The translations under genes were made by a program, and so were the position numbers. The notes beneath the pieces were generated by a model. The model saw only the letters and a program-made list of their open reading frames with translations, searched no databases and was not told where the DNA came from. 64,000 bases of DNA from Nonomuraea thailandensis. Lineage in GTDB: Bacteria; Actinomycetota; Actinomycetes; Streptosporangiales; Streptosporangiaceae. Shown here one piece after another: positions 31,616 through 33,284 of the stretch. The DNA is taken from contig NZ_JAMZEB010000002.1 of assembly GCF_024172165.1 (NCBI RefSeq), positions 10,080,501 through 10,144,500 of the forward strand, written 5' to 3'. Numbering within the stretch: the first letter of the stretch is position 1; each line of letters starts with the position of its first letter.

Positions 31616-32224
31616 TCAGGCGGCGCGGCCGGCCTTGAACGCGGCGGCGGTGTCCACGACGCGGCGGGCCTGGTGGCGGGCGCCCTGCAGCGGGACCTCG
31701 CCGGGCGGGCCGTCGCCGGCCACGTGCGAGGTGCCGTACGGGTTGCCGGTCCGGAACTGGATCGGGTCGGTGTAGCCGGGCGGCACGATGATCCCGCCCC
31801 AGTGGTAGAAGGTGTTCGCCAGCGCCAGGATGGTCGACTCCTGCCCGCCGTGGGCGGTGTTGGAGGCGGTGAAGGCCGAGTACACCTTGTCCGCGAGCCT
31901 GCCCTGGAACCACAGGCTGCCGACGCTCTCCATGAACACCCTGAGCGGGCTGGCCGGGTTGCCGAAGCGGGTGGGCGTGCCGAACAGCACCGCGTCGGCC
32001 CAGTCGAGGTCGTCCGCGGCGGCCACGGCCACACCGGCGGTGTCCCTGACGTGCTGGGCCCACTCCGGCCTGGAGTCGATCATCTCCTGCGGGGCGGGCT
32101 CGGCGACCTTGCGCAGCCGCACCTCGGCGCCGGCCTTCTCCGCGCCCTCGGCGGCGGCCTGCGCCAGGGCGTGCACGGTGCCCGTGGCACTGTAATAGAT
32201 GACCGCGACGTTGACGGGTTCCAT
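31616..32224 (-). CDS. wrbA: NAD(P)H:quinone oxidoreductase, WrbA type
   Basis: Flavodoxin-fold FMN enzyme of 202 aa that reduces quinones by two electrons, preventing semiquinone and superoxide formation. The FMN phosphate loop is IYYSATGTVHALA; other WrbA features are FGTPTRFGNPASPLRVFMES, STAH-region SNTAHGGQEST and GGIIVPPGYTDP. The start is the ATG at 32224 (MEPVNVAVIYY). It is divergent from an ECF41 sigma factor, and both genes have the same promoter element, so wrbA is a predicted member of the sigma factor's regulon. Confidence 0.93.
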   Translation of the reverse strand: MEPVNVAVIYYSATGTVHALAQAAAEGAEKAGAEVRLRKVAEPAPQEMIDSRPEWAQHVRDTAGVAVAAADDLDWADAVLFGTPTRFGNPASPLRVFMESVGSLWFQGRLADKVYSAFTASNTAHGGQESTILALANTFYHWGGIIVPPGYTDPIQFRTGNPYGTSHVAGDGPPGEVPLQGARHQARRVVDTAAAFKAGRAA

Positions 32225-32259
32225 GATCGTTCCTCTCTCGGCGTTGGGTTCGCCGGTAC

Positions 32260-32324
32260 GACGACGCAGCCGCGCGCGATGTGAGGCGGCGGGCCGGCCT
32301 CACAGTCCGGGCCGGTGTCTCGTC
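32260..32324. promoter_or_regulatory. Mirror-image ECF41-type promoters for wrbA and the sigma gene
   Basis: Plus strand: CCTCACA (32298-32304), 16 nt, CGTC (32321-32324), reading toward the sigma gene. Minus strand: CCTCACA (32286-32280), 16 nt, CGTC (32263-32260), reading toward wrbA. The published ECF41 promoter motif is TGTCACA-N16-CGTC, so both differ only in the first two bases and have exact spacing. The two -35 elements form an inverted repeat separated by 11 bp. Confidence 0.8.
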
Positions 32325-32366
32325 GGAGCTGTGAGGACATGAACGACCGAAGGAGCCGTCGACACG

Positions 32367-33284
32367 ATGGGCACGCGACCCGATCCAGGACTTGCCGCGA
32401 TCATGAGCGAGCGCCGTCACCTGATCAACCTCGCCTACCGGCTGCTCGGCTCGCTGGCCGACGCCGAGGACGTGGTGCAGGAGACGTACGCCCGCTGGTA
32501 CGCCATGTCCAGGGAGCAGCAGGAGGCCATCGGCTCACCCGCCGCCTGGCTGACGCGGGTCGCCGGCCGCATCTGCCTCGACCTGCTCCGCTCGGCCCGG
32601 GCCCGGCGCGAGCGCTACGTGGGCGAGTGGATCCCCGAGCCGCTGCCCGAGCGTACGGAGTGGCCGGACGCGCAGCCGGGTGACCCCGCCGACCGCGTCA
32701 CCCTCGACGAGTCCATCAACATGGCCTTCCTCGTCGTGCTCGAATCCATGACCCCGGCGGAACGCGTGGCGTTCATCCTGCACGACGTCTTCCGCTACCC
32801 GTTCGCCGAGGTGGCCGAGATCGTCGGACGCACCCCGGCGGCCTGCCGCCAGCTCGCCACCTCGGCGCGCCGCCGCATCCGCGACTCACGCGCCCCCGCG
32901 ACGCCCTCCTCCCAGCAGGCCGGCGTCGTCAGGGCCTTCAAGCGGGCCTGGGAGGGCAAGGACATCGGCGCCCTCATCGCCATCCTCGACCCCGAGGCCA
33001 CGGCGACCGGCGACGGCGGCGGCCTCGTCACGGCCGCGCTCCACCCCGTCCAGGGCGCGGAGCCGATCGCGCGCTTCTTCGCCGACCGGATGGACGCCGG
33101 ATCCGGCCTGGAGCTCGTCGAGCGCACGGTGAACGGCCAGCCGGGGCTGGTGGCTCAGCTCGACGGCGTCACCGTGTCGGTGCTGGCGTTCGACATCGTG
33201 GACGGCCGCATCAAGCACATCTGGGCGGTGCTCAACCCGGAGAAGCTCCGTCCCTGGACGGGGAGCCGGCCGCCCGCACCATGA
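32367..33284 (+). CDS. sigJ: ECF41-family RNA polymerase sigma factor (SigJ-like)
   Basis: ECF sigma factor of 305 aa with a fused C-terminal SnoaL/NTF2-like regulatory domain instead of a separate anti-sigma factor. Region 2 is at 10-80 (HLINLAYRLLGSLADAEDVVQETYARWYAM) and region 4 at about 125-180 (MTPAERVAFILHDVFRYPFAEVAEIVGRTPAACRQLATSARRRI). All three ECF41 signatures are present: WIPEPLPE in the linker, DGGG at the start of the SnoaL domain and NPEKL at the C-terminus. The ribosome binding site GAAGGAG precedes the ATG. It is probably autoregulated and controls wrbA. Confidence 0.94.
   Translation: MGTRPDPGLAAIMSERRHLINLAYRLLGSLADAEDVVQETYARWYAMSREQQEAIGSPAAWLTRVAGRICLDLLRSARARRERYVGEWIPEPLPERTEWPDAQPGDPADRVTLDESINMAFLVVLESMTPAERVAFILHDVFRYPFAEVAEIVGRTPAACRQLATSARRRIRDSRAPATPSSQQAGVVRAFKRAWEGKDIGALIAILDPEATATGDGGGLVTAALHPVQGAEPIARFFADRMDAGSGLELVERTVNGQPGLVAQLDGVTVSVLAFDIVDGRIKHIWAVLNPEKLRPWTGSRPPAP

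Follow-up and report, generated by a model that had tools for sequence, protein, structure and literature searches.

We propose that a 65-bp stretch of the Nonomuraea thailandensis genome consists of two divergent ECF promoters, both of which would be read by the adjacent sigma factor carrying serine at residue 166 (Ser166), and that the CC opening their -35 boxes fits the loss of an arginine that reads G at position -35. We assign this reading a probability of about 0.82; the promoters, their conservation, the co-variation of residue and base, and the unlinked targets were all obtained by sequence analysis. The window, i.e., the whole 64-kb stretch of DNA that was analyzed (64,000 nucleotides), contains exactly two matches to CCTCACA-N16-CGTC, at 32260-32286 on the minus strand and at 32298-32324 on the plus strand, against a mean of 0.08 in shuffled sequence, and none of 100 shuffles reached two. 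The plus copy is directed toward the sigma open reading frame (32367-33284) and the minus copy toward wrbA (31616-32224), the intergenic region being 142 bp long. Such a pair, with identical bases and spacing, had been described in the initial annotation; the exact pair was indeed found, and the identity holds for the -35 boxes, the -10 boxes, and the N16 spacing, with spacers that differ in sequence. A genome scan for the pattern, which had been suggested there as a check, returned six exact copies in the whole 13.77-Mb genome versus two for the reversed control pattern.

The minus-strand promoter comprises a -35 box CCTCACA (32280-32286, a pattern match that is kept at wrbA orthologue loci) and a -10 box CGTC (32260-32263, a pattern match kept in relatives), and a Shine-Dalgarno-like GAGGAA read off the sequence lies at 32230-32235, before the divergent target gene wrbA (31616-32224, minus strand), which encodes an NAD(P)H:quinone oxidoreductase type IV of the FMN_red fold. 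On the plus strand, the sigma gene's own promoter has its -35 box CCTCACA at 32298-32304, likewise a pattern match kept in relatives, and its -10 box CGTC at 32321-32324 inside a conserved TGTSTCGTC context, followed by a Shine-Dalgarno-like AAGGAG at 32350-32355, also read off the sequence. The two -35 boxes are separated by an 11-nt gap (32287-32297, without strand), which is conserved in length and information content in relatives, where its consensus is CGACGCGCCGA. The Ser166 codon is located at 32862-32864 on the plus strand, within the sigma4 recognition helix (helix 157-174 of the structural model). A third, inverted CCTCACA (TGTGAGG on the plus strand) was observed at 32330-32336, just downstream of the -10 box of the sigma promoter and without a CGTC partner; among 87 distinct Ser-type regions, the same offset recurs in one other region (L151).

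The sigma gene encodes a 305-aa protein with a fused C-terminal SnoaL-like domain. In profile searches, the protein scored 310.1 bits against the SigJ model NF007214 (cut-off 271) and 284.8 bits against the related SigX4 model TIGR02957, under the cut-off of the latter (323.25). Sigma70 regions 2 and 4 (PF04542 and PF08281) are present; PF12680 reached 21.2 bits on the C-terminus, below its 27-bit cut-off. Structure comparison was made with an AlphaFold model built from a 35-row alignment (mean pLDDT 75, poor in the linker), in which residues 178-300 resemble NTF2/ketosteroid-isomerase folds. This model matched Mycobacterium tuberculosis SigJ (5xe7_B) with Z 23.6 over 260 aligned residues at 36% identity and the ECF56 factor SigG1 (7qh5_A) with Z 24.1 over 272 residues; by sequence, the match to SigJ (E 1.9e-50) was far stronger than that to SigG1 (E 9.7e-14). 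The earlier assignment to an ECF41/SigJ-like family is borne out by the profile score, the SigJ match, and the fold. The motifs WIPEPL, DGGG, and NPEKL, on which that assignment had relied, all occur in the protein; DGGG and NPEKL are what we take to be ECF41 signatures. In the 129 Ser-type rows, W[ILV]PEP is present without exception (129/129). The WLPEP-type motif of the sigma2-sigma4 linker is an ECF41 feature (PMC3426412), and neither DGGG nor NPDK(L) was found in the main text of that report. The wrbA product scored 158.2 bits against TIGR01755 (cut-off 132.5) and 160.9 bits against NF002999 (cut-off 141), and matched Pfam PF03358. Neighbors of the sigma gene that were examined encode WrbA (FMN_red), a TRAP-TAXI binding protein, and a GNAT acetyltransferase, with no adjoining anti-sigma gene. 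The locus thus combines sigma regions 2 and 4, a SnoaL-like C-terminal fold, a WLPEP-type linker, and an oxidoreductase neighbor without an anti-sigma gene, all of which are ECF41 characters; neighbors typical of that group encode a carboxymuconolactone decarboxylase (CMD), an oxidoreductase, or an epimerase. Its -35 sequence, CCTCACA, departs from the ECF41 promoter consensus TGTCACA-N16-CGTC, with which the spacing and CGTC agree. Because of this -35 mismatch, and as the consensus is a group property of ECF41 promoters that lies outside the protein definition, we classify the protein as ECF41-type and regard its promoter as a variant.

Relatives of the sigma factor carry the same promoter footprint. 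A sigma match at E 1e-60 was obtained in 51 of 54 genus genomes. Among the 30 loci retrieved from the genus with the sigma protein as query (that of the window included), TCACA-N16-YGTC precedes the sigma gene in 27, with C at -35 in 26, and the inverted partner site is also present at 15; no such site was found before the sigma gene at three of these loci (L051, L072, and L074). When the best 80 of 581 relatives (80 named loci) were chosen by similarity to the sigma protein, 78 had Ser166 and 72 had TCACA-N16-YGTC with C at -35, and these 80 loci belong to eight orders, namely Streptosporangiales, Kitasatosporales, Micromonosporales, Pseudonocardiales, Propionibacteriales, Mycobacteriales, Frankiales, and Jiangellales. 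The bare CCTCACA-N16-CGTC pattern occurs 240 times in 53 genus genomes versus 94 times for the reversed control, and 136 distinct CC/TC sites gave an extended consensus that is, in outline, CCTCACA-TT[CT]CGGGG[GC]GCTGT[CG]T-CGTC. Both wrbA and CC promoters are retained next to each of the four orthologues most similar to the window sigma (L046-L049, 88-94% identical). These data support the view that both window sites behave like conserved promoters. The initial annotation had taken CC as a local variant of TG; it is instead the norm of a clade found in eight actinobacterial orders, together with an Arg-to-Ser exchange at sigma4 residue 166.

We consider that CCTCACA replaces TGTCACA because the sigma factor belongs to an actinobacterial clade with Ser at residue 166, where Arg normally reads G at -35. 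Among the 23 SigJ-like loci examined in this genome, this residue is Ser in two and Arg in 21. Both Ser-type loci carry CC pairs; a CCTCAC site was found at none of the 21 Arg-type loci, at least eight of which carry TGTCAC, CGTCAC, or GGTCAC. Relaxed matches with C at -35 at two Arg-type loci (L026 and L036) have an N15 spacer and no A at the seventh base, and look like chance. Residue and base were then tallied over 267 loci for TCACA-N16-YGTC sites at a distance of up to 250 nt, without any constraint on the two bases that open the -35 box; some strains are included twice, and distinct sequences were counted. All 37 distinct sites at Arg166 loci have G at -35 (TG 27, CG 7, and GG 3), and 141 of 145 at Ser166 loci have C (CC 135, TC 5, and AC 1), the other four having G. 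A looser pattern (TCACN, N15-17) gave G in 62 and C in three of 71 Arg-type sites, and C in 155 and G in nine of 168 Ser-type sites; of the 130 Arg-type loci, no more than 33 show the strict site.

Residue 166 occupies a place in the recognition helix that corresponds to an arginine reading this base. Residues 161, 162, 167, and 168 around it barely vary, and position 173 is hydrophobic, mostly Leu, in both ECF41 types. S166 aligns without gaps to an Arg of M. tuberculosis SigE, five residues after the first Arg of the SigE helix, and by this spacing the aligned Arg would be sigmaE R176. In the part of PMC6713349 available to us, R176 together with R173 bonds G-35, and R176 also contacts C-36. 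If the conserved AC of TGTCACA corresponds to -32/-31, then its G2 would be -35 and its T1 -36, which are both of the letters that differ. In a quick tree built without the sigma4 columns (137 rows after identity thinning, with SH-aLRT as the sole support measure), all 45 Ser rows, together with two Ala rows and one Leu row, form a single clade (SH-aLRT 99), the deepest Ser branch of which (L190 and L191) already has CCTCACG. Because the Ser rows fall in one clade, one evolutionary switch is indicated, not many, and a Fisher test on the association of residue and base therefore overstates independence. Three loci nested inside the Ser clade (L303, L307, and L329) have Ser166 and G at -35, L329 with the commonest helix of the CC-type factors, and thus Ser permits G and something else must favor C. 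Arg appears to demand G, and Ser appears, from these alignments, to allow both bases with C somehow preferred; avoidance of cross-reading by Arg-type paralogues is a suggested reason for C. The Ala166 locus (L053/L103) has CG before the sigma gene and CC before wrbA. At L303 and L307, two of these G-35 exceptions, the divergent gene is presumably FAD-linked oxidase-like, judging by its sequence, and not one of the usual partners.

The back-to-back arrangement itself is constrained. The outer ends of the -35 boxes stand 11 nt apart in 34, and 10-13 nt apart in 49, of the 60 distinct pairs of Ser or Ala type, and a second count of 54 pairs gave 11 nt in 33. The 11-nt gap is found alike with wrbA, small membrane protein, DoxX_2, LUD, CMD, Pyr_redox_2, SnoaL_3, SnoaL_4, YceI, and methyltransferase-like partners, and this constancy across differing partners implies that output genes are swapped behind a control region that is itself retained. 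In 27 pairs less than 75% identical to one another, information per position amounts to 1.26 bits in the gap, 1.07 and 1.11 bits in the promoter spacers, and 0.47 and 0.69 bits in the flanks. Upstream polymerase contacts, co-binding of two holoenzymes, or shared ancestry may account for the conserved center. Helical phasing of the gaps outside the 10-13 cluster was considered and dropped: Rayleigh p values were 0.27 at a period of 10.5 (0.08 with Arg-type pairs) and 0.05 and 0.009 at a period of 10, and an unhelical period of 13 equally gave 0.009 for the larger set, and so no phasing is claimed. Fourteen extra CCTCACA boxes, considered as possible operators, are present in the 87 distinct Ser-type regions, and two of these boxes (at L055 and L106) are promoters outside the strict pattern; first-order Markov simulation gave 5.0 (SD 2.1) for all boxes. 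Tandem arrays of three to five -35 boxes, with a period of approximately 14-20 nt, lie between the divergent promoters upstream of the sigma gene at L121, L124, and L089.

Sites of the same type are found before wrbA genes that are separated from the sigma gene. The 53 genus genomes yielded 23 loci with close wrbA orthologues (at least 76% identity); the upstream site is exact at 15 and has one or two substitutions at seven, so that 22 of 23 carry it with at most two substitutions. The exception, L358, is truncated by the start of its contig, and the genus-wide pattern scan has a site there. At five of the 23 loci (L348, L349, L351, L352, and L355), wrbA is unlinked to the sigma gene, meaning that no sigma gene lies within the locus and the contig is without a listed sigma match. 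The seven loci of more distant wrbA paralogues that were examined among those listed (L363-L369) had no site under the same two-substitution rule (0/7). A second -35 form before wrbA, CCTGACA, with C changed to G at the fourth base, was seen at L347, L350, L353, L357, L361, and L362, and as CCTGACG at L360.

A free SnoaL_3 gene provides a further candidate target. In this genome it is located at C2:1014673, with CCTCACA-N16-CGTC 96 nt upstream (L010), and it is present in 25 of 53 genus genomes. Where no wrbA lies directly upstream, a CC-type site with at most one substitution precedes SnoaL_3 at 15 of 16 loci (13 exact), versus one of nine loci at which a wrbA gene of the same strand immediately precedes it (Fisher 7e-5); a two-substitution rule raises the latter to two of nine by admitting L388, whose substitutions include the -10 box. 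That SnoaL_3 rarely has its own site when it stands directly behind wrbA is as expected for an operon. A one-to-one blastp of the free SnoaL_3 protein against the sigma C-terminal domain returned a single 15-residue match (E 0.002), and homology of the two is not claimed. Among the remaining exact genomic copies, L009 is followed after 188 nt by a long open reading frame, and L011 and L014 are without a convincing gene. A stricter extended pattern retrieved three sites in this genome, all at the two Ser-type sigma loci, and it misses the SnoaL_3 site and one member of the pair at the second Ser-type locus, L022 (G000:C2:7201296). The CC pair of L022, whose sigma factor is a 75%-identical paralogue, faces a small membrane protein gene, followed by a gene like that of the L054 Pyr_redox_2 protein.

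In relatives, the divergent CC promoter faces at least eight gene families besides wrbA. Behind the CC/TC sites of the loci scanned, and apart from the sigma genes themselves, wrbA was found in 25 rows (22 distinct sites), a small membrane protein that matched no Pfam family in 17 (15), CMD in nine (eight), SnoaL_3 in eight (seven), two DoxX_2 groups in seven (six) and three (two), YceI and SnoaL_4 in five each (five each), LUD in three (three), and Pyr_redox_2 and a gene that we label methyltransferase-like in two each (one each), along with five single cases. Twenty stand-alone regions were picked by eye among the matches listed, and their target families serve as illustrations from which no rates follow. 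The CMD-family proteins behind CC promoters all lack CxxC (9/9: L061, L067, L077, L100, L123, L127, L133, L205, and L210). The Ser-type clade thus seems, to judge from these sites, to run a regulon beyond one neighboring target, and the set predicted for this genome comprises the window sigma, wrbA, the second Ser-type sigma with its divergent partner, and the free SnoaL_3 gene. The earlier proposal that SigJ activates itself and wrbA agrees with the conserved sites and probably remains the best reading as far as it goes; wrbA is not the sole output, as the divergent promoter faces other families in relatives and unlinked genes also carry CC sites.

ECF41 loci in which the sigma gene and an oxidoreductase gene diverge, each from its own promoter, have been described, as has the N16-CGTC layout (PMC3426412). 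In the available portion of that study (Wecke et al. 2012), 55 of 373 loci were divergent, with a sigma promoter in 36 and a partner promoter in 41. The present locus shares with those ECF41 loci the sigma2-sigma4 region with a fused C-terminal domain, the W[IL]PEP linker, the lack of an adjoining anti-sigma gene, a neighboring divergent oxidoreductase (FMN_red in their list), promoters on both genes, N16, and CGTC. It differs in its -35 box, CCTCACA instead of TGTCACA, and in Ser at the sigmaE R176 position, and the partners SnoaL_3, SnoaL_4, DoxX_2, YceI, and LUD fall outside the three classes given in the accessible text. The CMD proteins of ECF41 loci reported in that text all have CxxC, unlike those behind CC sites here, and the regulon of the CC-type clade seems to depart from the published single-target picture of ECF41. 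M. tuberculosis SigJ (5xe7) belongs to the same family model, NF007214, and has the same fold over its full length, but it has Arg at the Ser166 position; we regard it as a family relative and claim no orthology with the window sigma. ECF56 SigG1 of Streptomyces tsukubaensis (7qh5), as far as the accessible description goes, likewise joins sigma2-sigma4 to SnoaL_2 and ties with SigJ in overall fold, but is only 26% identical to the window sigma. The E. coli sigmaE and B. subtilis SigW factors on -35 elements have an equivalent recognition helix, and both keep Arg in the part of PMC6713349 available. That few residue-nucleotide pairs set ECF specificity was reported by Todor et al. 2020, as cited in the accessible text of PMC11588781, and their co-variation follows the same principle as the pairing of residue 166 with -35. 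In the open literature we found no report of a CCTCACA ECF41 promoter, where an earlier listing of a CC-type subgroup is possible, and no publication on ECF41 together with WrbA; the string TCACA is absent from the main text of the RIViT-seq paper.

Several other explanations were weighed against our reading. It is unlikely that these are ECF promoters whose physiological reader is another sigma, either the Ser-type paralogue or an Arg-type ECF41 factor. The paralogue L022 shares the core recognition helix ACRQLATSARRRI with the window sigma and has a CC pair of its own, and so cross-reading is expected; however, the retention of wrbA and CC promoters beside the closest orthologues L046-L049 argues for the adjacent factor, and the lack of CCTCAC at all 21 Arg-type loci of this genome argues against an Arg-type reader. 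We consider it improbable that CC reflects drift at a degenerate -35 position without specificity. Such drift could accommodate the Ser166 loci with G (L303, L307, and L329) and the use of both bases at the Ala166 locus L053/L103, but a drifting position in GC-rich DNA should give G and C alike, and the base left free was C in 141 of 145 Ser-type versus 0 of 37 Arg-type sites.

It is very improbable that TGTGAGG-N11-CCTCACA is the operator of a dimeric repressor or activator, beside which the CGTC boxes would be incidental, although the tightly constrained gap (11 nt in 34 of 60 pairs) with its conserved bases and the tandem extra boxes at a few loci (L089, L121, and L124) would suit an operator. 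Among 21 hand-picked regions away from the sigma gene (the 20 stand-alone regions plus L010), an inverted box is missing from the 45 nt upstream in 18, which nevertheless keep N16-CGTC; pairs with gaps of 0, 1, 6, 20, 41, and 51 exist; and the altered sigma4 residue reads the very base in which these promoters depart from those of other ECF41 factors. A chance likeness to the published ECF41 consensus without any promoter function is hardly credible: the motif is short, and of four other exact genome copies only L010 lies close before a gene-like open reading frame, but the exact window pair and the conservation at sigma loci, wrbA orthologues, and SnoaL_3 loci speak against chance.

In the reading that we prefer, namely two divergent promoters served by the Ser166 sigma, a trigger would release sigma2-sigma4 from the fused SnoaL-like domain; the C-terminal domain of other ECF41 factors has been reported to be inhibitory, in the accessible parts of PMC3426412 and PMC8999054. 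It is an ECF41 character that partial truncation of this domain activates transcription from the target promoter. Holoenzyme with the freed sigma would then read both CC promoters and raise expression of its own gene and wrbA, as well as of the unlinked SnoaL_3 gene. The second Ser-type sigma (L022) may share the CC promoters. The change at residue 166 would give the clade its own promoter set, one that Arg-type paralogues present in the cell are not expected to recognize. We infer the window sigma, or its 75%-identical paralogue, as the reader, and in the same way autoactivation, insulation, and ligand release of the SnoaL-like domain. WrbA proteins reduce quinones by family name (TIGR01755 annotation), and YceI lipocalins have been seen with bound ubiquinone, according to the available text of PMC9113575. 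Targets such as WrbA, DoxX_2, YceI, CMD, and pyridine-nucleotide oxidoreductases make quinone or lipid-oxidation stress plausible, and the quinone or redox signal that had been supposed would be compatible with the target list and nothing more. A more ambitious reading, which we hold to be tentative and on balance doubtful, is that loss of the arginine that reads G-35 (the R176 equivalent, replaced by Ser) opened a private, insulated promoter channel among the ECF41 factors of Actinomycetota with a multi-gene redox regulon behind it, in which the 65-bp module, its 11-bp center included, acts as one unit. Members of this regulon would be the sigma gene, wrbA, and the free SnoaL_3 gene and, in relatives, DoxX_2, YceI, CMD, LUD, and others; the module would have swappable outputs, perhaps with two holoenzymes, or a SnoaL-bridged sigma dimer, binding together.

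The 21 Arg-type and two Ser-type SigJ-like loci of one genome, with promoter letters that match, constitute a natural experiment in the co-evolution of sigma factors and promoters. The swap of one residue and one or two bases is directly testable and could serve orthogonal expression tools. These findings also argue that the control exerted by some ECF41 factors extends beyond the adjacent gene to a regulon, and the target list of WrbA, SnoaL_3, DoxX_2, YceI, and CMD provides a starting point for seeking the ECF41 signal.
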